From Bacteroidales bacterium (lineage in GTDB: Bacteria; Bacteroidota; Bacteroidia; Bacteroidales; P3), in the NCBI GenBank assembly GCA_017479705.1, contig JAFVCA010000035.1:1-40053 (forward strand): a stretch of 40,053 nucleotides of DNA. The letters are read 5' to 3'. Every line of letters begins with the position of its first letter. Within the stretch, counting starts at the first letter, position 1. The notes beneath the pieces are model-generated. The model saw only the letters and a list, made by a program, of their open reading frames with translations, was not told the origin of the DNA and did no database searches. Position numbers and translations under genes: made by a program. Positions 2,239 through 32,693 of this stretch are shown one piece after another.

Positions 2239-3054
2239 CTAAATTGACTGCGGTGCGCCCCAGCCGAGTTTTTGGTGGATGGCGCTGAAGAAACTTTGGC
2301 TGCCGAGGCGGACAAGGCGGATGGAGAAACGTTCGCGCGAGAGGGTGACTTCGGCCCCGTGCGGGAGGGGCTGGCGGCGCGAGTCCATGCCGAGGCTGAA
2401 TTGTTGGGGCTGGGGATGGGTGACGAGGCGGAGGGTGGCAGTGTCCGGCACGATAATGGGACGGAGGGTGAGGTTGTGGACTCCGATGGGTGTGATGACG
2501 AGGCAGCCGCTGTCGGGGGTGAGGATGGGGCCTCCGCAGCTAAGGGAGTAGGCCGTGGAACCTGTAGGGGTGGCGACGATGATGCCGTCGCCGGCGTAGG
2601 TGGCGACAAAGTCGTCGGAGACGTAGAGGTCGGTGCTGAGGAGGGGCTCTTCGACAAAGCGGTGGAGGCTGACCTCGTTGAGGGCGAAGGTGGAGAGTTC
2701 GCCCCCTTCATACCGCGCCACGACGTGGAGGAGCGTGCGGGGTTCGAGGGTGTAGCGTCCCGCCATGAGGTCGGAGACGAGGCTGTCGATATTGTCGCGC
2801 CCGGCGGTGGTGAGGAAGCCAAGATGGCCGAAGTTTACGCCAAGAACAGGTATGTCGCGGTCCGCAATGAGGTGGACGGAGCTGAGGAGGGTCCCGTCAC
2901 CACCGATGGAGAGGAGGAAATCCAACGGAGAGTCGGGCAGACTGTGGTGGACGAGGTGGGTTTGTACCCCATGGTTGTTCAACAGGGTGATGAGCCGCTG
3001 GAGCTGTGGGCGGTATTCATCGTCGATGTGGCGTAGGTAGAGTGCTATATTCAT
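2239..3054 (-). CDS. nadK: NAD kinase
   Basis: This enzyme phosphorylates NAD to NADP using ATP or polyphosphate in the cytoplasm. The 271-residue length is normal. The GGDGT motif is at residues 51-55, the NE motif at 126-127 (FALNEVSLHR), and the glycine-rich ATPTGSTAYSLSCGGP segment at about 161-176; all three are diagnostic. The ATG at 3052-3054 gives a start right at the first beta strand (MNIALYLRH), as in other family members. It lies downstream of the T9SS cargo gene on the same strand with a 22-bp gap, and its stop faces the tandem duplication. Confidence 0.97.
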   Translation of the reverse strand: MNIALYLRHIDDEYRPQLQRLITLLNNHGVQTHLVHHSLPDSPLDFLLSIGGDGTLLSSVHLIADRDIPVLGVNFGHLGFLTTAGRDNIDSLVSDLMAGRYTLEPRTLLHVVARYEGGELSTFALNEVSLHRFVEEPLLSTDLYVSDDFVATYAGDGIIVATPTGSTAYSLSCGGPILTPDSGCLVITPIGVHNLTLRPIIVPDTATLRLVTHPQPQQFSLGMDSRRQPLPHGAEVTLSRERFSIRLVRLGSQSFFSAIHQKLGWGAPQSI

Positions 3055-3076
3055 CTGGGTTGTTGTTTACTGGTTT

Positions 3077-4669
3077 TCAGCGCAGCAGGGTTACTGTGCC
3101 GGTGTAGGTTTTGCGGGTGCCGTCAGCGTGGAGGCAGGAGATGCGGTAGACGTACACTCCTTGCGGGAGGGGTTTGTTGAGGGTGCTGGTTCCGTCCCAG
3201 CAGTCGTCAAGGTTGTGGGTACTGAACAGGCGCTGCCCTTGGCGGGAATAGACTTCGAAGGTGTAGTCCCGAACTGTGGGGGCGACGAGGGCGGGACAGA
3301 GTTTGCCTACTTGTGGGTCGCCGGCTTTGATGATGTTGGGTATCCAGGCGGCAGGTTCTTGTTTGGGTGGCAGGGTGACGACGACGGTGTCCGAGAGGAT
3401 GTAGCGTTGGGCGCAGCGGTCCGGCACTTGGAGCTGATAGGAGTAGGCAGGGGCATTGCGGTTGATGTCGCGGTCGGTGAAGTGGAATGTCTGCTGCGGA
3501 TTGGGCTCGGCTGAGGGATGGAGGGTGGCAATGGGTTGGAAGGCGTCCCATCGGTAGGAGGCATCGGAGGCATCAGCGTGGGCAAGGGAGCGTAGGAGGC
3601 GACAGCTGTCGACAGGGTAAAGGGGGTCGACTTGCAGGGAAAGTGATATTGCGGAAAGGGAGTCGACATAGTCGGCACTGAGTATGGCGGCGTATTGCGG
3701 TGTGTCCGGCTGGGGAAAGGCAAAGGTGCGTATTGCGGAGAGGGCTGTGAGGCTGTCGGCAGTGTTGTGGACAGAGAGGTAGGCACGGATGAGTGAGGTG
3801 GAGAGGTCGGCGACAAGGGTGTCGAACTGGAACGGGCCTTGGGTTCCCACGCTGTGGTGGAGCCATGGGGTATTGTGACCCAGCTGGTAGTGCAACACGT
3901 AGCGTGCTACGCTGTCCGGCATGTTGATGTAGCGATTCCAGGAACAGGTGAGACGGCGCGAACAGGGGGGTGCGTCAAGACTGAGGGCAGGATTGTGGAA
4001 ATAAGGCGTGAGGGGACTTGCCTGCATGCAGCTGTCAAAAGCAAGTATGCGGAAGCTGTATTGGCGGGCAGAGTCCAGCAGGAGGGTGTCGGCACAGAGG
4101 TAGGTGGTGTTGAGGCGACCCCACACGGTGTCGAAATTGAGGCAGGGGGTCCCCATGCAGATGTAGTAGCCAAGCACGTCGGTGTCCGGCGCGGGATACC
4201 AGCTGAGGCGGAGTTGCCCCAAGAGGGTGTCGACACTGCAAAGGCGCAAGGTGGGGGGCGACGTGGGTATGTTGTCCTGAAAAAAAAGTCCCACGGTGTC
4301 GGAAAAAAGGAGTGTATCCGACGGGAGCCCTCCGACAGTGTCGGTACAGCGAGCGGTGAGGAGATAGCTGACAGTGTCGGCACAGATGACACGACGCAGG
4401 GTGTCGAAGTAGGTTGTGGCGACAAGGGTGGCTATGGGGAGGAAGTTGTCCTGATTGGGATAGCGGCGGAACAGCTGATAGGACTGGACATTGGGGACGG
4501 AATCCCACGTGAGGCGAGCCACATGGTGGCTGACCACGGCGGAGGAGGTGAAGTGCAAGGAGGGCTGCTGGGCAGAGACGGCAGAGGGGTGGGCAGCAAG
4601 CAACAGCCAGAGGGCGCAGAGGGCTCTGCGGTGGCGGGAACGGGCTGTGTGAACGCGGCGGGGGTTCAT
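3077..4669 (-). CDS. Secreted protein with T9SS type B (gliding motility-associated) C-terminal domain
   Basis: The 530-residue product starts with a basic stretch and a hydrophobic signal peptide (ALCALWLLLAAHPSAVSA), probably cleaved near residue 33. The middle is made of fibronectin type III-like or Ig-like beta repeats, such as LTWDSVPNVQSYQLFRR at about residue 53 and LRLSWYPAPDTDVLGYYICM near 155. The last 85 or so residues, with FEVYSRQGQRLFSTHNLDDC, the WDG motif and GVYVYRI, ending VTLLR, match the CHU_C / gliding-motility C-terminal domain that directs export by the type IX secretion system. The cargo function is unknown. The coding strand is rich in C-ending codons. It precedes nadK by 22 bp and follows the ABC exporter by 24 bp. 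Confidence 0.85.
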   Translation of the reverse strand: MNPRRVHTARSRHRRALCALWLLLAAHPSAVSAQQPSLHFTSSAVVSHHVARLTWDSVPNVQSYQLFRRYPNQDNFLPIATLVATTYFDTLRRVICADTVSYLLTARCTDTVGGLPSDTLLFSDTVGLFFQDNIPTSPPTLRLCSVDTLLGQLRLSWYPAPDTDVLGYYICMGTPCLNFDTVWGRLNTTYLCADTLLLDSARQYSFRILAFDSCMQASPLTPYFHNPALSLDAPPCSRRLTCSWNRYINMPDSVARYVLHYQLGHNTPWLHHSVGTQGPFQFDTLVADLSTSLIRAYLSVHNTADSLTALSAIRTFAFPQPDTPQYAAILSADYVDSLSAISLSLQVDPLYPVDSCRLLRSLAHADASDASYRWDAFQPIATLHPSAEPNPQQTFHFTDRDINRNAPAYSYQLQVPDRCAQRYILSDTVVVTLPPKQEPAAWIPNIIKAGDPQVGKLCPALVAPTVRDYTFEVYSRQGQRLFSTHNLDDCWDGTSTLNKPLPQGVYVYRISCLHADGTRKTYTGTVTLLR

Positions 4670-11577: not shown

Positions 11578-12456
11578 CTACAACTCCATTAATTTCAAAA
11601 ATGATGAGGGATAGGCGGTTTTAAACTCCATACGCTTGCCCGTAACGGGGTGGGTAAACCCTAAGCGGAAGGCATGCAGTGCCAACCTGCCTATTGGCGA
11701 GATGTCGTCTTTGTATCCATACATGGGGTCATGGACAACAGGGTGTTTTTCCTCTCGCAGATGCACTCTGATTTGATTGCGCCGACCTGTATCCAAGCGC
11801 AACTCCAACAGTGAGTAGCGACGACTCGTTTGGACCACTTTGTAATGGGTGACAGCCAGTTTCCCGCCATTGTCAGTTGGAGAAGAAAGTACACAATATT
11901 CTCCGTCTGTGAGCCACGAGCGTATAGTCCCTTCCTTGGGTTCCACATTGCCCCAAGCCACTGCCACATACGCTCTGTCGTACACAATTTTTTTCCAGTC
12001 GGCCTCGAACCGTTGCGACACCTGCTTCGATTTCGATACCACCATCAATCCTGATGTGTCCCGGTCCAGCCGGTGGACAATGTGAGCATTGCATTTCTGA
12101 TGGGTAAGGTACAGATACCTGTTCAACACCGTAATCACTGTATTGTCTGTACTTTTCTTGCTGTAGGACAACAATCCTTCATGTTTATTTATCACAAAGA
12201 GATGTTCATCTTCATAGACTATATCCAAGTCGCGTGGCTTAAATCGCTCCTTATATCCAGCCTTTTCAATGGTCACACTCATGCCAGGCTGCAGGGGGTA
12301 GTTGAATTGACTCACCCTTCTGCCGTCCACACACACATTGTGTGCAAGCAACTCTTTTATCTTCGTCCGACTGCTGTCAGGCATCTTTTGCACCAGAAAC
12401 TGGAGCAACTCACATGTGGCTTCAACCCTGTATTCTACTTGTTTCACGTGAAACAT
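11578..12456 (-). CDS. RluA-family rRNA/tRNA pseudouridine synthase
   Basis: The 292-residue enzyme has an N-terminal S4 RNA-binding domain (about residues 17-63, SSRTKIKELLAHNVCVDGRR) and an RluA catalytic domain whose motif HRLDRDTSGLMVVSK contains the catalytic Asp near residue 131. The C-terminal part has the usual RLDTGRRNQIRVHL and LHAFRLGF blocks. It converts a uridine in rRNA or tRNA to pseudouridine; which site cannot be told (RluC/RluD-like). The first codons, giving MFHVKQ, are formed by a perfect parS palindrome at 12440-12455, so the start region carries two functions. Two DnaA-box-like sequences lie just upstream. Confidence 0.9.
   Translation of the reverse strand: MFHVKQVEYRVEATCELLQFLVQKMPDSSRTKIKELLAHNVCVDGRRVSQFNYPLQPGMSVTIEKAGYKERFKPRDLDIVYEDEHLFVINKHEGLLSYSKKSTDNTVITVLNRYLYLTHQKCNAHIVHRLDRDTSGLMVVSKSKQVSQRFEADWKKIVYDRAYVAVAWGNVEPKEGTIRSWLTDGEYCVLSSPTDNGGKLAVTHYKVVQTSRRYSLLELRLDTGRRNQIRVHLREEKHPVVHDPMYGYKDDISPIGRLALHAFRLGFTHPVTGKRMEFKTAYPSSFLKLMEL
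12440..12455. other. parS chromosome-partition site (ParB binding)
   Basis: TGTTTCACGTGAAACA is a perfect 16-bp palindrome that fits the conserved bacterial parS consensus TGTTNCACGTGAAACA at all positions. parS sites load the ParB clamp and cluster near the replication origin. Here it overlaps codons 1-6 of the RluA gene. No parA or parB gene is in the window. Confidence 0.9.
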
Positions 12457-12466
12457 TTTTTAAAGG

Positions 12467-12496
12467 TTATCAACATTCCGTTATGGGTTATCAACA
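12467..12496 (+). promoter_or_regulatory. Pair of DnaA-box-like sites next to parS
   Basis: GGTTATCAACA occurs twice: the 9-mer TTATCAACA is at 12467-12475 and 12488-12496, same orientation, 21 bp (two helical turns) apart. TTATCAACA differs from the DnaA box TTATCCACA by one base. The pair lies 11 bp from parS and in the upstream region of the RluA gene, where it could also affect that promoter. Confidence 0.5.
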
Positions 12497-12553: not shown

Positions 12554-13045
12554 TCAATATAGTTCCATGAATTCATACTGGTTCCCAATGCTTTTTATGA
12601 ACTTCAACATGTCGTCGCGACTTATCACCAAGGATGCTGTATTGTCATTAGGGTGGAAACTTACTTTCTCGGCTTCCAGCAATTGTTTGTCCACAAACAA
12701 AATCACCTCGTGGTTTACATCATTGACAAGGGTGAAGAGGGAAACCGACCCAGGTTTTACCCCCAAGTACTTCATCATGCGTTCTGGCGATGCAAAGGAG
12801 AGTTTTCCTTGATGTAACTGGTGCTCTATATCATGGATGTCCATATCGTGACGTGCGTCCATGATGACAAGGTAATGTTTATTCCCCTTATGGTTGCGGA
12901 AGAAAAGATTTTTGCACAACACTGTCCCCTCACCACGATAGTACTGCGAAGCAATTTCTATGGTAGGAGCTTCAGGGTGCTCATAGTAATCGAACCTTAT
13001 CCCCTGCTGATTCAGATAGTCGTATACCTGTTGCTGGCCTCTCAT
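12554..13045 (-). CDS. Prolyl-tRNA deacylase-like protein (YbaK/ProX family)
   Basis: The 163-residue protein belongs to the YbaK/EbsC/ProX domain group. It opens with VYDYLNQQGIRFDYYEHPEAPT, followed by GTVLCKNLFFRNHKGNKHYL with the conserved lysine, then a C-terminal GSVSLFTLVNDVNHEVILFVD block; the layout is that of stand-alone ProX, which hydrolyses Ala-tRNA(Pro) and protects translation fidelity. Specificity for Ala or Cys on tRNA-Pro is inferred from family likeness. Its ATG overlaps the nadA stop codon in an ATGA arrangement, indicating translational coupling with nadA. Confidence 0.85.
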   Translation of the reverse strand: MRGQQQVYDYLNQQGIRFDYYEHPEAPTIEIASQYYRGEGTVLCKNLFFRNHKGNKHYLVIMDARHDMDIHDIEHQLHQGKLSFASPERMMKYLGVKPGSVSLFTLVNDVNHEVILFVDKQLLEAEKVSFHPNDNTASLVISRDDMLKFIKSIGNQYEFMELY

Positions 13046-13989
13046 TTTATGATTCCTAATTGTTTTGAGAGGTCAAGCATGCGGATGATGGGGAGTTTCG
13101 CTTTCTCGATGGTGTCAGCATCCATAACGATTTCGGGCGTCTCGTCGCGCAAACAGGTGTAAAGCTTTTCGAGGGTGTTCTGCTTCATATAGCTGCAATC
13201 GGCACAGTTGCATCCTTCTTTTGCTGTAACGGTGATGAACTCTTTGTCGGGGTTGTTTTTCCGCATCTCGTAGAGTATGCCTGTTTCAGTGGCTACGATA
13301 AATTTCTTCTTTCCCGATTTCTCAATGTAGGTGAGCATGGCTTTGGTGCTTCCTATAAAGTCGGCCACCTTCAACAATGCCCCGTTGCATTCTGGGTGGG
13401 CTATCACTACGGCATCAGGATGCTCTAACTTCAACTTCATGACAGTTTCAGCCCGCATGGCATCGTGCACCATGCAGACGCCGTCCCACAGCAGCATGTG
13501 GCGGCCAGTGACGCTGTTGATGTAGCCGCCCAGGTTCTTGTCGGGCGCAAAGATGATTTTCTGGTCTTCGGGCAGTGAGCGAACCAGCTTCTCGGCATTG
13601 CCAGAGGTGCAGATGAGGTCGGACAGGGCTTTTATCTCGGCGGAGCAGTTGACGTAGGAGATTACCATGTGGTCGGGGTGCTGCGCCTTGAAGCGGGCGA
13701 AGTCCTCGCCCTTGCACGACTCGGCCAATGAGCAGGTGGCGGTGATGTCCGGCAGCAGTACTTTGCATGAGGGGTTGAGGATTTTGGCTGTTTCGGCCAT
13801 GAAGTGCACTCCGCAGAAGACGATGATGTCGTTATTGCATTGCTGCGCCATTTGTGCCAAGGCGAGACTGTCTCCGATGTAGTCGGAAAGGTCCTGGATT
13901 TCGTCGCGTTGGTAATAGTGTCCCAATATGACGGCATTTTTCTCTTTTTTCAAGCGGATAATCTCGCTTTTTAATTTTTCTGCTTCCAT
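13042..13989 (-). CDS. nadA: Quinolinate synthase
   Basis: This [4Fe-4S] enzyme condenses iminoaspartate with dihydroxyacetone phosphate to quinolinate in NAD synthesis. From the ATG at 13987-13989 the protein has 315 residues, the compact NadA type. The likely cluster ligands are Cys86 (ATCSLAESC), Cys172 (WDGVCMVHD) and Cys260 (AKEGCNCADC). ILGHYYQRDEIQDLSDYIGD near residue 21 and HPECNG near 198 are substrate-binding blocks. A longer frame to 14118 runs through the promoter, whose -7 and -33 elements lie at 14053-14082, so the shorter start is preferred. No nadB or nadC is adjacent. It is the first gene before the origin-like region and is transcribed away from it. Confidence 0.95.
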   Translation of the reverse strand: MEAEKLKSEIIRLKKEKNAVILGHYYQRDEIQDLSDYIGDSLALAQMAQQCNNDIIVFCGVHFMAETAKILNPSCKVLLPDITATCSLAESCKGEDFARFKAQHPDHMVISYVNCSAEIKALSDLICTSGNAEKLVRSLPEDQKIIFAPDKNLGGYINSVTGRHMLLWDGVCMVHDAMRAETVMKLKLEHPDAVVIAHPECNGALLKVADFIGSTKAMLTYIEKSGKKKFIVATETGILYEMRKNNPDKEFITVTAKEGCNCADCSYMKQNTLEKLYTCLRDETPEIVMDADTIEKAKLPIIRMLDLSKQLGIIK

Positions 13990-14052
13990 AACGGTTGTAT
14001 TTATATAATTATCAAACACTCCGACTGTTGTTACGGAGGTTTTTGGATTTTG

Positions 14053-14082
14053 CAAATATACGCTATTTTTTTTAATTCTCAA
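14053..14082 (-). promoter_or_regulatory. Bacteroidota-type promoter of nadA
   Basis: On the minus strand, TTG (14080-14082) is followed after 19 bp by TATATTTG (14053-14060), an exact TAnnTTTG -7 element. It lies about 64 bp before the chosen nadA ATG and would give a leader of roughly 55 nt. Confidence 0.75.
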
Positions 14083-14118
14083 CACTTTTCCTTCGTCAAA
14101 TTTCTCTCTTCTTTCCAC

Positions 14119-14583
14119 CAGGTGCTGAAGTCTCTTTTAGATTACTTATATTTCTTATGTTATAATCTATAATTTCTTTTATTATGGTTGTCAAAATTGT
14201 TGATAAGTGTTTTTCTTTTTTTTTCTTGCTCAACGTTTATCAACGCTTATCAACTTTCTATTTCACCACAGTTTTCTGTTTTTCAGTCTCGTTTCTCTTT
14301 GTCAACATCCTGTTGATAGCATTACAAACAGCCATTTGTTTATAAGCATCTTTGCAGTTACAGACCTGCTTTTTTGTTGAAAATAGCTGATAAAAATCAG
14401 GTTTTTCAACACTCCCGCAGTTGTTTTTTTTCTTTCAGATTTTATCGACAGGGTTGTCAGCATCTTGTCAACATTTCTTGTTGATATTTATTATCGTCCT
14501 GATTTTCTTGTGATCTGTCCCTGTGTTCAAAAAATTGTGCATAATTTAATCTTCTTTATTCTTAATAGTTTATGCAATTGTGG
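14119..14583. other. Candidate replication origin region (DnaA-box-rich, AT-rich, gene-free)
   Basis: No coding frame is supported here. The stretch is very AT-rich, with a possible unwinding element at about 14140-14190, and is filled with 9-mers close to the DnaA box TTATNCACA. Top-strand sites: TTATCAACG 14237, TTATCAACT 14247, TTGTCAACA 14299 and 14465, TTTTCAACA 14403, TTATCGACA 14442. Bottom-strand sites: TTATCAACA 14198-14206, CTATCAACA 14311, ATATCAACA 14479, TTTTCAACA 14375, and TTATGCACA 14536-14544, an exact consensus match. Many form inverted pairs: 14299/14311, 14375/14403 around a CTGAT-AAAA-ATCAG hairpin, and 14465/14479. It separates a minus-strand gene block from a mainly plus-strand block, and parS is 1.7 kb away. 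Origin function is inferred. Confidence 0.55.
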
Positions 14584-14591
14584 TATCTTTG
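14584..14591 (+). promoter_or_regulatory. -7 promoter element of rpiB
   Basis: TATCTTTG fits TAnnTTTG and lies 32 bp before the rpiB ATG. The -33 position has no clear TTTG, so strength is uncertain. Confidence 0.6.
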
Positions 14592-14623
14592 CACCGTCAA
14601 TAAAGTTATAAACACTCTTTGTT

Positions 14624-15067
14624 ATGAAAGAAATTATCCCTATAGCATGTGATCATGCAGGCTTCGAGTTGAAAGAGGCTGTGAAGAAACATCTGTCCGA
14701 CTTGGGTTTCGATGTGAAAGACTTTGGCACAAACAGCAATGACAGCGTCGATTACCCAGATTTTGCCCATCACGTCGGTCATGCAATAGACAGCGGTTTG
14801 TACAAACGTGGCATCGTCATCTGTGGCAGTGGCAACGGTGTGCAGATGACCGTCAACAAATATCCCAATGTGCGCTGTGCCTTGTGCTGGAATGTTGAGA
14901 TAGCCCATCTTGGTCGGCAACATAATGATTGCAACATCATCTCTCTCCCTGCCCGCTTCATTCCGCAGGAGTTGGCTTTGCAGATTGTCGACGAGTTTCT
15001 GAACACCCCCTTCGAAGGGGGCAGACACCAGCGCAGAGTGGAAAAAATCAGTCAGTTACTCAAATAA
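14624..15067 (+). CDS. rpiB: Ribose-5-phosphate isomerase B
   Basis: The enzyme interconverts ribulose 5-phosphate and ribose 5-phosphate in the pentose phosphate pathway. The 147-residue length fits RpiB. ACDHAGFELKEAVKKHL at residues 7-23 holds the phosphate-binding Asp-His, and IVICGSGNGVQMTVNK near 64-79 carries the catalytic Cys and the phosphate-binding glycine loop. VRCALCW and the RHQRRVEKI C-terminal helix complete the family pattern. It is the first plus-strand gene beyond the origin-like region and lies 15 bp before deoC, forming a pentose operon. Confidence 0.96.
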   Translation: MKEIIPIACDHAGFELKEAVKKHLSDLGFDVKDFGTNSNDSVDYPDFAHHVGHAIDSGLYKRGIVICGSGNGVQMTVNKYPNVRCALCWNVEIAHLGRQHNDCNIISLPARFIPQELALQIVDEFLNTPFEGGRHQRRVEKISQLLK

Positions 15068-24078: not shown

Positions 24079-25962
24079 ATGAAATGGTCTTCGTTTGATG
24101 TGATTGTTGTTGGTGGCGGTCATGCGGGTGCTGAGGCATCGGCAGCAGCTGCCAATATGGGTGCAAAGACGTTGCTCATCACTATGAATATAGATACAAT
24201 CTGCCAGATGTCTTGCAATCCAGCCATGGGTGGTGTGGCCAAAGGACAGATTGTACGTGAGATTGACGCCTTGGGCGGCTATTCGGGCTTGGTGACGGAT
24301 GCGTCGATGATTCAGTTCAGGATGCTCAATCTTTCAAAAGGACCTGCCATGTGGAGTCCACGCGCACAGTGCGACAAGATGCGGTTCTCTTTGAATTGGA
24401 GACATGTCTTGGAGAATATCCCTAATCTTTCAATTTGGCAGGATGAGGTGGTTGATGTCCATATTAAGGACGGTGCAGCTTGCGGTGTTCGCACACGCAT
24501 GGGATTAGACATATCTTCCCGTGCTGTTGTGCTCACAAACGGCACTTTCCTGAATGGGACTATTTATATTGGCGAGGGCTCGTGGACTGGCGGTAGGATA
24601 GGGGAGAGGTCGGCGATGGGCTTGTCGGACAATTTGCGCAATTATGGTTTTTCCGTGGAGCGGCTGAAGACTGGAACCCCTGTCCGTATAGATGGCAGGA
24701 CTATAGACTTTGACAAGTTGATGGTGCAGCCTGGCGATGACGTGCCGCACAAGTTCTCTTTTCTTGACACGAAACCTCTCACGCAACAGCGACCCTGTTA
24801 TCTCGCCTATACAAATGAGATGACCCACGACATTCTCCGCACAGGCTTTGACCGTTCGCCTCTTTATACGGGGAGGATACAGGGACACGGGCCACGCTAC
24901 TGCCCTTCGATTGAAGACAAGATTGTCCGCTTTGCTGGTAAAGATAGACACCAGCTGTTTGTCGAGCCAGAGGGGTGGAGGACTAATTCTTATTATCTGA
25001 ATGGTTTTTCGTCCTCGCTGCCGCTCGAGGTGCAACTGGATGCTCTCCACTCAATCCAAGGGTTTGAGCATGCCCAGATTTTTAAACCGGGTTATGCAAT
25101 CGAATATGATTATTTTCCGCCCACGCAATTGAAGTATACACTGGAGACCAAACCTGTGGAGAATCTCTATTTTGCCGGTCAGATTAATGGAACTACTGGC
25201 TATGAGGAAGCAGCTTGCCAGGGACTGATGGCTGGCATCAATGCAGTACTTAAATTGAATGGGATGGCTCCGTTTGTCCTCAACCGAACACAGGCTTATA
25301 TCGGAGTGTTGATTGATGACCTTGTCACGAAAGGAGTGGATGAGCCATACAGGATGTTCACTTCAAGAGCAGAGTATAGAATTCTTTTACGCCAGGACAA
25401 TGCCGATGTCCGGCTGACCCCCCTGTCGCATGAGATTGGGTTGGCCTCGGATGAACGCATGAGGAGGGTAGGGGAGAAGACCCGTTACACTGACGAGATA
25501 GTAAAATCAGTACAGGAAATCCCCATTACGCCGAGCGAGGCTAATCCGTTGCTTGAAAGTCTTGGCACCCCTGGTTTGCAGCAGCGTGTCAAATTAGTCA
25601 ATCTTCTCTTGCGACCCGAACTCAGAGTGGAGCACCTGCTGACCATCTCCCCTCAATTGAAAGCTGTCGTCGATGGGCTGCCCGCATATTTGAAAGAGGA
25701 GGTTGTTGCTGCGGCTGAGATTTTGCTCAAATACCAACGGTATATAGAGAAAGAGAAGGATGTTGCCGATCGCATCTTGAAGTTCGAGGACATAGTCTTG
25801 CCTGTGGACTTTGATTATTTCACTCTCACCTCACTGTCCTATGAGGCACGCGAGAAGTTGAACAAAATGCAGCCACGCACCCTTGGCCAGGCATCGCGTA
25901 TTAGTGGTGTCTCCCCTGCCGACGTTGCGGTACTTTTGGTCTATATGCAGCACTCCAATTAA
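24079..25962 (+). CDS. mnmG: tRNA uridine-5-carboxymethylaminomethyl modification enzyme MnmG (GidA)
   Basis: MnmG works with MnmE to place the cmnm5 group on wobble uridine-34 of several tRNAs, including tRNA-Lys(UUU), using FAD and methylene-tetrahydrofolate. The 627-residue length is normal. The FAD-binding [12 protein letters not shown] is at about 10-21, [13 protein letters not shown] near 45-57 holds a catalytic-region Cys, [11 protein letters not shown] and [15 protein letters not shown] follow, and [18 protein letters not shown] near 370-387 is the second family signature. The C-terminal helical domain for tRNA and MnmE binding is complete. gidA genes lie close to the origin in many bacteria, which fits the origin-like signals nearby. 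Confidence 0.97.
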
Positions 25963-27323: not shown

Positions 27324-27396
27324 GACTAAGTAGCTCAGCAGGTAGAGCACATCCCTTTTAAGGATGGGGTCCTGGGTTCGAATCCCAGCTTAGTCA
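27324..27396 (+). tRNA. tRNA-Lys (anticodon TTT), copy 1
   Basis: The 73-nt cloverleaf is complete: acceptor GACTAAG/CTTAGTC, D arm GCTC/GAGC, anticodon arm CATCC/GGATG with loop CTTTTAA (anticodon TTT), a 5-nt variable loop, and T arm CTGGG/CCCAG with loop TTCGAAT. The discriminator base is A, and CCA is not encoded. Its wobble U34 would be a substrate of MnmG, encoded 1.4 kb away. Confidence 0.97.
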
Positions 27397-27413
27397 CATT
27401 TTTTTCATGGCCA

Positions 27414-27486
27414 GACTAAGTAGCTCAGCAGGTAGAGCACATCCCTTTTAAGGATGGGGTCCTGGGTTCGAATCCCAGCTTAGTCA
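27414..27486 (+). tRNA. tRNA-Lys (anticodon TTT), copy 2
   Basis: This copy is identical to the first over all 73 nt and is offset by exactly 90 bp; the 17-bp spacer contains a T-run. Both copies share one promoter upstream and one terminator downstream. Confidence 0.97.
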
Positions 27487-27493
27487 CAAGAAC

Positions 27494-29459: not shown

Positions 29460-32400
29460 ATGAAGCCCTTACAGCATGTCGCATTCCTGTTCGTGACGGT
29501 CTTCCTCGGTCTCGTGCCATGCCATGCCCAGGACACTGTTCTCTTCGACAATGCCTTCACTGTCAATGTGGACGGAGTTACCAGTTCTTCGGGCTATATT
29601 TTCGACGACGGAGGCCCTACGGCAAACTATTCCAACAATTTTGCCGGAATGGTTATTATTACAGCTCGTTTAGGCGACACCATCGAGCTCACTGGCACTT
29701 ACACCACCGAGCGCATGTCCGACTACCTCTACGTCTACAACGGCTCTGGCCGCACAGGCACCACCCTGGGCACCTATAGTGGCTCCGGAAACCTCCATTG
29801 CATCTCCGTCACCAGTGTCATGACCCTCTATTTCACCTCCAACGCCCTGATCAACCGCTCTGGTTTCGAACTCCTCTACACCGTCCATCCTTCCGCTTGC
29901 AACAACTTCATTGCCAACTTCTCCTACACTGACATCTCTGCCTCCGATATCAACCTCGTCTGGCTTGCCAACAATGCCAACGACACCTTCCAAGTCTCCT
30001 ACGGCACCACCTCCACCACCGTTGTAGGCTCTTCCTGCCGCATCTCAAGTCTTAGCCCCAGGACCAACTACACCTTCCACCTCTCCTCCCTTTCCGACAC
30101 CGGCTCTACCGGCTGTCTGCGTACCCTCAACGTCCAGACTCCCTGTGTCACGGCATACATCCATGGTGCCCATCCTATTTGCCGTGAGGACACCATTCTC
30201 CTCACTGCCGACAGTGCCGGCTCCTACCTCTGGTCTACCGGCGACACCACGCGCTCCATTCTCGTCACCCAACCTGGCGACTACTCCCTTGTGGTCAGCT
30301 CTTCAGGTGGCTGTTCCGATACCGACCATGTCCGAATCCCCCAACGCACCGTGGGCATCGACATCTCCATCCCTCATTCTCTTTGTCCCGGCGACTCGAC
30401 ACTTGTTTCCGTGGGCCTCTCCGCATTTGCCAATATCCATGTCAACATGGGGCAGAATATCCTATCCGAGGCCAACCGCATCTTCCTCCCCGACGGCGTT
30501 TCATGCAGCCCCTACGGCTGCTCCTACCGCTCCGAACTGGCTTTCTCCGACTTCGACAATAACGCCCAAATCACCGGCGTCAACGACATCCGCTACGTCA
30601 TGCTCAACCTGGAGCATACCTACGCCGGCGACCTCTACATCAACATCACCTGCCCCAATGGCCAATCTGCCGACCTCCTGCGCTATGGCGGCTCTGGCCA
30701 CTCGCAGTGCAATAGCTCCATAGCCTCCTCCAGCAGGGGGTGGCAAAACGGCATAAATGCCAATCCCAGCACCAACTTCGGTCAGCCCAACTCCGGCGAG
30801 TCTTCCAACGCTTGCGACTCCACTGCCGTCGGCAACAGTCCGGGTATAGGCTGGCGCTATTGTTGGTCCAATGCCACCGATGCGGGCTACTCCTATGCCT
30901 CTGGCGACGGCCTCATTTATCGGGCTTCCAATGTCCATTCCAGCGCTTTCGACTCCTCCAACGTCCTCTTGGGCACCCATTTCTATCGCCCGGACCAGTC
31001 CCTTGCCTCCCTCATTGGCTGCCCCATGAACGGCACTTGGTACATCGAGGTCATCGACGGCTGGAGTGGCGACAACGGCTACATCTTCGGCTGGACCCTT
31101 GCCCTCAACCCCGAGCGCCTTTCCCACAATGATTATGTGCCCTCCGTTTCCTATGCCGACCTCCTCGGCCCTTGGGTCGACCGCCACTCGGACACCACCT
31201 TCTCAATCCATGCCCCGGACTCCCTCGTTGCCGACACCACCGTCACCTACACCGTCCACATCTACGACAGCAGCGGCTGCCGGTTCGACACCTCTTTCTC
31301 CATCCTCTTCCGTGCACTCTCCGTGGGTGATACCTTCGCCGTTGCTTGCGACAGCTTCCTTTGGCGTGGCAACACCTACTACCAATCCACCACCGACACG
31401 CTCGCTTCCCTTTTCAGCAATGCCGCGGGCTGCGACAGCTCTCTTGCCCTCACCCTCACCCTCCTGCAATCCACTCGTGTTCAGTTCTTCGACACCTGTA
31501 CCGAGGCCATGCTCCCGCGCACGTTCCACGATTCTGTCTTCTACACCGACACCGCCGATGTCCTCTTCACCGTCCCCATTGCCGACGGCTGCGACAGCAT
31601 GATACTCTACAGTCTCCACGTCCTCCGCAATGTCTACACCAATGTCGACACTTCCCTCTGTGCCGACCAGTTGCCCATCACCTGGCACGGCCATCTCTTC
31701 ACCGATGGCGGTTCATACACCGCAACCCTCTCCTGTCGCAACGGGGCCGACAGCATTGTCACCTACACCCTCCACACCAACCCTGTCTACACCCTTCAGG
31801 TTGCCGACACCATCTGCCAGGGCTCCTCACTCCTTTTTGGCGGCCAGTCCCTCTCTCTGCCCGGCAAGTATACCGACTCTCTCCTCACCACCGCCCTGTG
31901 CGACAGCGTTGTCCACCTCCAGCTTGCACTCCTCGACACCATCCACATCGAGCTCCTGCATGAATCCCGCTGCCAGCCGCCTGCCCATCTCGTCTCCTGC
32001 AACACCTCTCCCTCATGGCGCTATCAGTGGACCGCCGACCCCAGTGACCCCGATTTGCTCCCGCAGCAGCGCGCTGACCATATCACCGTCAGCCCCGTCA
32101 CCCCAACCACCTATTATCTTGTTGTCAGCCATAGCAATACCGACTTCTGCTCTGCCACCGACTCCATCTTCCTCAGTCCCATTACACCCATCCATGTCGA
32201 CTGGGACATCAACATCAATGGCCAGCAGTTGGAAATCATCAACACCAGCACCGGCTACACCTCGCAGAGCTGGTATGTCAACGGTCAGCTTTCGGACAAC
32301 CATTCATCACGTTTTCTCTATTCAGGCGGCGACGAGACCGACTCCATCCGCGTCACCCTCGTCCTTTCCAACGACTTCTGTTCCGACTCCATCTCCAAAA

Positions 32401-32693
32401 CCATTGTCCTCGTCCATTCTGCCATCTATTTCCCCAATGTCTTCACCCCCGGTGCTATGGACAACAACCGCTTTGCAGCCATCGGCAGTGGCATTCTCGA
32501 ATATGAGATATGGATTTTCGACCGTCGCGGTGTCAAGGTCTACCATGGCACCGACATCAACAACGGTTGGGACGGCACCTGCAATGGGCGCCCCTGCCAG
32601 CAAGCCGCCTATACCTATTTCTGCCGCTATCGCGACCACAATTCCGCCCAGGGCTACCAAACGGCCAAGGGAACCATCCTTCTACTCAGATAA
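29460..32693 (+). CDS. Large secreted CUB / P-domain protein with T9SS type B C-terminal domain
   Basis: The 1077-residue product has a signal peptide (HVAFLFVTVFLGLVPCHAQ), then a CUB-like domain at about 28-140 (GYIFDDGGPTANYSNNFAG, YLYVYNGSGRTGTTLGTYSG). An FN3-like and an Ig-like unit follow (about 150-290). A proprotein-convertase P-domain spans about 310-555 (VMLNLEHTYAGDLYINITCP, GTWYIEVIDGWSGDNGYIFG) with no protease domain beside it. Four repeats of about 45 residues with paired Cys and 'CDS' motifs lie at about 620-820. The last 90 residues, with YFPNVFTPGAMDNNRF, VYHGTDINNGWDGT and ending GTILLLR, form a gliding-motility-type T9SS export domain. A surface adhesin or carbohydrate/protein binder is plausible. 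Confidence 0.88.
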   Translation: MKPLQHVAFLFVTVFLGLVPCHAQDTVLFDNAFTVNVDGVTSSSGYIFDDGGPTANYSNNFAGMVIITARLGDTIELTGTYTTERMSDYLYVYNGSGRTGTTLGTYSGSGNLHCISVTSVMTLYFTSNALINRSGFELLYTVHPSACNNFIANFSYTDISASDINLVWLANNANDTFQVSYGTTSTTVVGSSCRISSLSPRTNYTFHLSSLSDTGSTGCLRTLNVQTPCVTAYIHGAHPICREDTILLTADSAGSYLWSTGDTTRSILVTQPGDYSLVVSSSGGCSDTDHVRIPQRTVGIDISIPHSLCPGDSTLVSVGLSAFANIHVNMGQNILSEANRIFLPDGVSCSPYGCSYRSELAFSDFDNNAQITGVNDIRYVMLNLEHTYAGDLYINITCPNGQSADLLRYGGSGHSQCNSSIASSSRGWQNGINANPSTNFGQPNSGESSNACDSTAVGNSPGIGWRYCWSNATDAGYSYASGDGLIYRASNVHSSAFDSSNVLLGTHFYRPDQSLASLIGCPMNGTWYIEVIDGWSGDNGYIFGWTLALNPERLSHNDYVPSVSYADLLGPWVDRHSDTTFSIHAPDSLVADTTVTYTVHIYDSSGCRFDTSFSILFRALSVGDTFAVACDSFLWRGNTYYQSTTDTLASLFSNAAGCDSSLALTLTLLQSTRVQFFDTCTEAMLPRTFHDSVFYTDTADVLFTVPIADGCDSMILYSLHVLRNVYTNVDTSLCADQLPITWHGHLFTDGGSYTATLSCRNGADSIVTYTLHTNPVYTLQVADTICQGSSLLFGGQSLSLPGKYTDSLLTTALCDSVVHLQLALLDTIHIELLHESRCQPPAHLVSCNTSPSWRYQWTADPSDPDLLPQQRADHITVSPVTPTTYYLVVSHSNTDFCSATDSIFLSPITPIHVDWDININGQQLEIINTSTGYTSQSWYVNGQLSDNHSSRFLYSGGDETDSIRVTLVLSNDFCSDSISKTIVLVHSAIYFPNVFTPGAMDNNRFAAIGSGILEYEIWIFDRRGVKVYHGTDINNGWDGTCNGRPCQQAAYTYFCRYRDHNSAQGYQTAKGTILLLR

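Follow-up and report, generated by a model that had tools for sequence, protein, structure and literature searches.

Introduction

The replication origin of Bacillus subtilis is located at dnaA. Clusters of DnaA boxes also occur at sites of the datA/DARS type, which are separate from the origin and have no unwinding element. In Escherichia coli K-12 (NC_000913.3), oriC lies about 110 bp from mnmG, and an AT-rich stretch is followed there by the box TGTGGATAA on the annotated strand; the consensus box of this species is given as TTWTNCACA (PMC7561715). For the basal unwinding system of B. subtilis, a co-oriented pair of boxes is described beside the region that melts (PMC10721633). Among the Bacteroidetes, an oriC distant from dnaA is reported, with reference to DoriC, to be common, and the same report predicts a DnaA-box oriC for chromosome 1 of Prevotella intermedia OMA14 at the GC-skew transition, with dnaA at a distance (PMC4755523). 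According to a review, Caulobacter crescentus has DnaA boxes at the centromere-like parS near its origin, and DnaA bound at parS can start segregation (PMC6399470).

We analysed a stretch of 40,053 nucleotides (hereafter the window) that forms contig 53 of a Bacteroidales assembly of 2.1 Mb in 53 contigs, with a completeness of 74.7%. By RpiB, its closest named relatives are uncultured rumen Bacteroidales (RUG360, 97% identity); the RpiB of Candidatus Colimorpha pelethequi is more distant (75% identity). A preliminary description of this DNA had proposed an oriC between nadA and rpiB. Our analysis supports that reading: the nadA-rpiB gap is very probably the chromosomal replication origin. It holds an array of boxes that is conserved in relatives, has a fitting layout, does not depend on the genes beside it and resembles an origin defined by skew elsewhere in the order. 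The absence of dnaA beside the array is unsurprising, since dnaA-distal origins are reported to be common in the phylum (PMC4755523).

The locus resembles the P. intermedia oriC in having a cluster of DnaA boxes with no dnaA nearby. The P. intermedia study relied on the E. coli box with one mismatch, whereas the box used here, TTWTCAACA, came from comparison of relatives; a skew transition is reported for P. intermedia (PMC4755523), but none is visible in the window's genus. The box TGTGGATAA of E. coli has the same orientation as TGTTGATAA next to the candidate DNA unwinding element (DUE) here, and mnmG is a neighbour in both, although 9.5 kb away in the window; E. coli differs further in its flanking genes and in having C at position 6 of the box. 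The locus shares with B. subtilis a co-oriented box pair beside the presumed melting region, but here the second box is degenerate and no convincing DnaA-trios accompany it (PMC10721633). Origins distant from dnaA are already reported in the Bacteroidetes; the present lineage has a box of its own and, less expectedly, a candidate parS-linked DnaA site. Among the papers listed in a search of mostly open literature, none, judged by title and beginning of abstract, reports a TTWTCAACA-type box for the Bacteroidales. The locus thereby provides uncultured rumen bacteria of this lineage, for which we found no studied origin, with a specific candidate origin that can be put to the test.

Results

An array of TTWTCAACA boxes between nadA and rpiB

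The features of the locus are listed in Table 1. The gap was delimited at 13990-14623 because NadA homology begins at 13989. It is therefore wider than the interval 14119-14583 given originally; the description of the array as lying in AT-rich non-coding DNA held (69% A+T). The divergence of the surrounding genes was also borne out: in a gene list drawn up from the open reading frames, 11 of the 13 genes left of the array run leftward and 13 of the 17 on its right run rightward.

Table 1. Features of the candidate origin region and its surroundings in the window
Feature	Position	Strand	Remarks
parS, exact 16-mer TGTTTCACGTGAAACA	12440..12455		within the first codons (MFHVKQ) of a pseudouridine synthase gene
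Two TTATCAACA boxes, starts 12467 and 12488	12467..12496	+	beside parS; candidate satellite DnaA site
nadA (quinolinate synthase)	13042..13989	-	PF02445, E 1.3e-120
Candidate oriC (non-coding DNA separating the divergent nadA and rpiB genes)	13990..14623		box array; gap kept in close relatives
Box TTCTCAACA	14076..14084	+	score 10.5
Candidate DUE	14135..14184		lowest-GC 50-mer of the gap, 6 G/C of 50
Degenerate second box ATTTTGACA	14189..14197	-	tandem, abuts the DUE-proximal box; column conservation around box
DUE-proximal box TTATCAACA	14198..14206	-	3' end toward the DUE
Boxes TTATCAACG and TTATCAACT, starts 14237 and 14247	14237..14255	+	
Inverted pair TTGTCAACA (+) / CTATCAACA (-)	14299..14319		
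Box TTATAAACA	14337..14345	-	score 9.5
Pair of TTTTCAACA, - at 14375 and + at 14403	14375..14411		starts 28 bp apart
Boxes TTGTCAGCA (+), TTGTCAACA (+), ATATCAACA (-)	14454..14487		
Boxes TTTTGAACA and exact TTATGCACA	14524..14544	-	
TATCTTTGCA	14584..14593	+	probable rpiB promoter element, outside the origin
Box-like TTATAAACA near the rpiB start	14606..14614	+	score 9.5; array membership doubtful
rpiB	14624..15067	+	PF02502, E 4.4e-59
mnmG (gidA)	24079..25962		9.5 kb from the array

The array of DnaA-box-like sites reported for 14119-14583 proved real, with counts above those in shuffled sequence. With TTATNCACA as the query, 20 sites were found at up to two mismatches against 7.9 in shuffles (reached in 0 of 300), and just 4 against 0.8 at up to one mismatch (reached in 3 of 300). 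The inverted pairs that had been described are present as well, at 14299/14311, 14465/14479 and 14188/14198. The one exact box named earlier is TTATGCACA, on the minus strand at 14536-14544; with a score of 7.5, where the maximum is 13.4, it is among the weaker matches to the box of the lineage.

This lineage box was derived from 51 distinct nadA-rpiB gaps shorter than 1200 bp, taken from close relatives. Most belong to the window's genus, at least two to another genus of the family (L104, L105), and some loci have no stated genus; since the relatives share kinship, locus counts overstate the number of independent events. Nine loci with a nadA-rpiB distance above 1200 bp (L028 among them) were excluded from this set and studied apart, and loci with no nadA on the contig (for example L009, L011, L014, L016 and L027) were left out of the gap counts. 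With no motif assumed, the most enriched 9-mers were TTATCAACA (71 occurrences, 2.1 expected) and TTTTCAACA (80, 4.0 expected), each present in 42 of the 51 gaps. An alignment of sites seeded with TTATCAACA yielded the 9-base motif TTWTCAACA with barely conserved flanks. It is the E. coli DnaA box with C changed to A at position 6; the 51 gaps together contain a single copy of TTATCCACA. Enrichment thus sustained the view of these sites as DnaA boxes but changed the working box: TTATNCACA, weak in the window by the one-mismatch count, was replaced by TTWTCAACA, to which we infer that DnaA binds.

Scanned with TTATCAACA at up to one mismatch, the interval 14119-14583 holds 11 sites against 0.32 in shuffles (reached in 0 of 300). 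With a matrix whose training set left out both the window and its nearest relative, 13 sites scoring at least 8.5 were found in the whole gap, against a mean of 0.5 and a maximum of 3 in dinucleotide-preserving shuffles, and the array is the richest 500-bp segment of the 40-kb contig. One might suppose that AT-rich 9-mers had clustered by chance in a long T-rich gap, as its A+T content and the few one-mismatch sites of the E. coli consensus would allow. None of 1000 shuffles reached the lineage-box count, however, and the same boxes are enriched across the 51 gaps, so that the probability we give to chance is close to nil.

Within the array, the two TTTTCAACA sites follow a recurrent arrangement: of the 284 pairs of adjacent boxes in the 51 gaps, 28 consist of a minus-strand box followed by a plus-strand box at a distance of 28 or 29 bp, more than for any other spacing. 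The last box-like site, TTATAAACA at 14606, sits in the rpiB leader. Close to it is TATCTTTGCA, which we take, after the Bacteroidetes -7 motif, to be probably a promoter element of rpiB; TATCTTTGC was found in 31 of the 51 gaps.

The array is kept in relatives and does not follow its neighbours

Loss of the array in relatives that keep the nadA-rpiB order had been suggested as evidence that would speak against an origin. The opposite was seen: in 46 of 49 loci with both genes the richest 500-bp segment is at this place, as scored with the first matrix, which was trained on such gaps themselves and served for the per-locus scans. The cluster on the parS side is richer than the gap in L023 and L024 and ties with it in L041. 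Pairwise comparison of gaps showed higher conservation in the boxes than outside them in five of five cases (for example, 0.949 against 0.851). On a larger scale, we scanned nine long stretches totalling 1.82 Mb, seven of the genus including the window and two of other genera of the family. The gap is the sole top 500-bp segment in six and ties for the top in three: with the parS-side cluster in G127 and G052, and with at least four other places in G027, where the tie amounts to only two sites and says little.

Sites lying between two divergent promoters, several of them as inverted pairs, could also be operators of a transcription regulator of nadA, rpiB or both, and nadA adjoins rpiB in 14 of 29 loci from other genera and families. 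Rearranged loci speak against this. In L015, two open reading frames separate nadA from the array and four separate the array from rpiB; in L037 the numbers are one and four. The array remains at the point of divergence in both, despite genes inserted on both sides. (Taken from its first GTG, the next open reading frame in L015 extends over two boxes, a start that is over-long as called; the homologous frame of L037 begins beyond the array.) In L017, L025, L036 and L047 it is nadA that is displaced, and the array still adjoins rpiB. The same boxes, moreover, stand beside parS and, between other genes, near the skew minimum of a more distant genome (see below). We consider operators very unlikely, and an origin remains our reading of the array.

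The 29 loci come from a survey of the order, in which 138 of 149 genomes had an RpiB match and the best 30 loci were fetched, 29 of them besides the window's own. The regions up to 700 bp upstream of rpiB contain 42 boxes in total, against 4.5 in shuffles (maximum 13). Eight of the 29 loci have at least three boxes there (shuffles: mean 0.06, maximum 1), and 11 have none. Among distant loci, L051 (Lentimicrobiaceae) and L053 carry an array directly upstream of rpiB; others, such as those of Prevotella and Bacteroides (L054, L057, L076-L079), showed none in the vicinity of rpiB.

A candidate unwinding element adjoins a tandem box core

In the window, the candidate DUE is 14 bp from the box at 14198, which together with the degenerate box abutting it forms a tandem core at 14189-14206. 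A similar layout recurs in the relatives: in 37 of 50 gaps the end of the lowest-GC 50-mer is no more than 25 bp from a box, most often 13-15 bp, whereas 500 random placements gave a mean of 17.6 and a maximum of 29 gaps. In all 37 the adjacent box is in minus orientation, with its 3' end toward the AT-rich stretch; the layout is absent in the other 13. The tandem core pattern was found in 30 of 51 gaps on the strand of the DUE-proximal box and in 1 of 51 on the other strand. Among eight long stretches it occurs in the gap of seven, that of G023 being the exception, with two matches elsewhere in 1.78 Mb; the pattern was derived from the 51 gaps, partly the same ones as in these stretches. Inspection of the aligned gaps by eye revealed no clear run of DnaA-trios.

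These features suggest how initiation may proceed. DnaA, encoded elsewhere on the chromosome, would bind the TTWTCAACA boxes through its domain IV. A DnaA filament could start at the minus-strand box at 14198 and its degenerate neighbour and extend toward 14135-14184, where it would melt the AT-rich stretch and so permit loading of the helicase. Two forks would then depart along the directions of the divergent genes, and ParB at parS, 1.7 kb away, would gather the newly copied origin region for segregation.

DnaA and the dnaA loci

The DnaA domain PF00308 was found in 75 of 79 genomes of the genus, in 74 above the curated cut-off. That dnaA lies outside the window was correctly stated at the outset; PF00308 was not found anywhere in the window's own, incomplete assembly (75% complete). 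Positions of both dnaA and nadA were available for 47 genomes, and in all 47 the two genes are on different contigs (compared by hand).

We asked whether DnaA of this lineage differs where it reads the box. Six residues of DnaA are described as contacting bases: R399, P423, D433, H434, T435 and H439 (PMC7561715); the helix of residues 434-451, which includes T435, is described as reading the 3' part of the box (PMC5742627). Upon alignment to 1j1v, all 20 DnaAs compared have GNKDHATVLHAC in place of the E. coli GGRDHTTVLHAC. R399, D433, H434 and H439 are kept in all 20. The T435 position is occupied by Ala throughout; at the P423 position 19 proteins have Ala and one, L129, has Ser. Judged from the sequences, these replacements are compatible with the reading of a box changed in its 3' part, such as TTWTCAACA; they fit this idea and do not prove it.

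An origin at dnaA itself was considered and rejected: 20 dnaA loci of the genus have no rich box cluster, save a moderate one in L123, with seven sites scoring at least 8.5 within 500 bp upstream of dnaA and 11 in about 3.5 kb, the maximum among the 20 loci. For Porphyromonas gingivalis, a published primer shows TGTTGATAA upstream of dnaA (PMC4222909), so that single boxes of the TTWTCAACA kind occur at dnaA promoters also.

The dnaA loci bear on a further explanation, namely that the array is a site for titration or reactivation of DnaA, of the E. coli datA or DARS type, with the origin elsewhere. The cluster beside parS agrees with this insofar as the region has more than one DnaA-box site. 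Against it, no comparable cluster was found at the 20 dnaA loci, the gap is the top or tied-top cluster in every long stretch examined, it has a candidate unwinding element in a recurrent geometry, and a cluster of such boxes lies near the skew minimum of G304. A titration site is, in our judgement, extremely unlikely, and the gap is better read as oriC.

As to other proteins, second DnaA-like matches were present in G014 (C6) and G155 (C202), and C1 of G304 has five weak extra matches to the Bac_DnaA domain. Our guess is that such extra matches are perhaps IstB-like ATPases of insertion sequences.

DnaA boxes accompany parS

The parS reported 1.7 kb from the array was recovered as an exact 16-mer, the assembly's only one at up to two mismatches. 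Genus-wide, parS was found at up to one mismatch in 71 of 79 genomes. Among the matches listed, 35 share a contig with nadA and 16 do not, and in 22 of 22 genomes with both positions among them at least one parS is no further than 22 kb from nadA. Of 31 genomes, 29 have a ParB of the TIGR00180 type; the window's own assembly is one of the two in which it was not found.

The two boxes beside parS have counterparts in the relatives. Where parS sits beside ybaK, a box occurs within the adjoining 500 bp in 42 of 43 close-relative loci, at a density of 2.98 per kb against a background of 0.255 per kb, and parS and box stay together beside ybaK even where the pseudouridine synthase gene is elsewhere. 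We collected 57 distinct parS cores (TTTCACGTGAAA) from L001-L111 and the window, 49 of which have a box within 60 bp. The spacing is 22-29 bp in 37 of the 57, and exactly 28 bp in 17 of those. Eight cores have no box within 60 bp, four of them on the rpiB side. Second parS cores of this boxless kind were seen in L015 (position 19555), L036 (18402), L037 (17363) and L062 (17964), in these four 7-10 kb past the rpiB start, and in L074 (8399).

The two boxes next to parS are thus probably a second place of action for DnaA, which might be titrated there or might couple to partition. As in Caulobacter crescentus, DnaA boxes would lie at a parS near the origin (PMC6399470), but in the present case they are recognised from sequence alone and show a preferred spacing of 22-29 bp. 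It is conceivable, though we advance it tentatively, that core oriC in the gap and the composite of parS and DnaA box form a two-site device: DnaA and ParB would come together on the DNA, and DnaA would set the time of initiation as well as that at which segregation starts. In the loci read, the composite lies about 1.6 to 6.3 kb from the gap, it stays together where the neighbouring genes change, and its spacing is often 28 bp. If true, the arrangement would be an independent counterpart, in the Bacteroidota, of that in Caulobacter. The composite is a candidate for a direct connection of DnaA with the centromere site of ParB.

A box cluster adjoins the skew minimum of a complete-length genome

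The one-contig, 4.3-Mb genome G304, from another family of the same order, allowed the box to be compared with GC skew. The tandem-pair pattern has a single match in G304, and this match belongs to a cluster in which 400 bp hold six exact TTATCAACA, where 0.015 would be expected (calculated from 422 kb of G304). Sampled every 240 kb, the skew ranges from +0.009 to -0.103 before the cluster, passes from -0.10 at 1.44 Mb to +0.04 at 1.68 Mb, is positive in all 10 samples from 1.68 to 3.84 Mb and is -0.080 at 4.08 Mb. Within the 52 kb read around this place, the cumulative skew has its minimum at 1,650,954, and the first box is 1.5 kb from this point; in 4-kb bins, the skew beyond the minimum is +0.168, +0.059 and then mixed. 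Since the cluster adjoins the skew minimum, the motif marks a skew-defined origin in this genome. The cluster is 1.2 Mb from dnaA (at 467 kb) and its neighbours are neither nadA nor rpiB, the latter being at 3.94 Mb; the nadA/rpiB context is therefore not universal in the order. No parS of the window's type was found in G304 at up to one mismatch. A box of this kind may help to locate origins that are poorly revealed by the E. coli consensus and by GC skew, and the gap could serve as a reference point when replication rates are estimated from metagenome depth in uncultured rumen Bacteroidales.

GC skew and gene direction in the window's genus

The skew of the window had been noted as opposite to the usual one, with codon bias as a possible cause. 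The sign was confirmed, the top-strand GC skew being +0.10 left and -0.05 right of the array, and the genus has a strong strand-linked C bias at codon position 3 (coefficient -0.2 to -0.4). Any replication skew is swamped in the window because of the strong third-position C excess on coding strands. Two segments of the window, 2239-4669 and 29460-32693, show this excess strongly, with skew down to -0.7.

For the window and eight long stretches, we computed the skew raw, detrended and strand-corrected at fourfold sites. In the window, the side effect fitted at fourfold sites is -0.166. It is positive in five of six genus stretches, the sixth, G052, giving -0.013; the two other genera gave -0.008 (G023) and -0.005 (G027). 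After detrending or codon correction, the distance between minimum and gap is 11-94 kb in the genus stretches. G096 has its raw minimum inside the gap, but detrending shifts it by 84 kb, for which reason we do not count it as proof of an origin. For G023, the minimum of the raw skew after detrending is 0.8 kb from the gap and the corrected minimum 74 kb away. The skew analysis suggested in the preliminary description thus gave a minimum near the box cluster in G304, of the same order, but scattered minima in the window's own genus.

Co-direction of genes with forks departing from the gap is not clear over whole genus stretches (0.39-0.65 of coding length). When only the nearest 20 kb are counted, the fraction is 0.42 in G052, 0.53 in G096 and 0.68-0.86 in the other four. 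The neighbourhood of the gap has a steady member in mnmG, found 9-17 kb from it in the window and in six of six long contigs of the genus. Beyond mnmG, the window carries two tRNA-Lys(TTT) genes in tandem, at 27324-27397 and 27414-27487, with equal Rfam scores.
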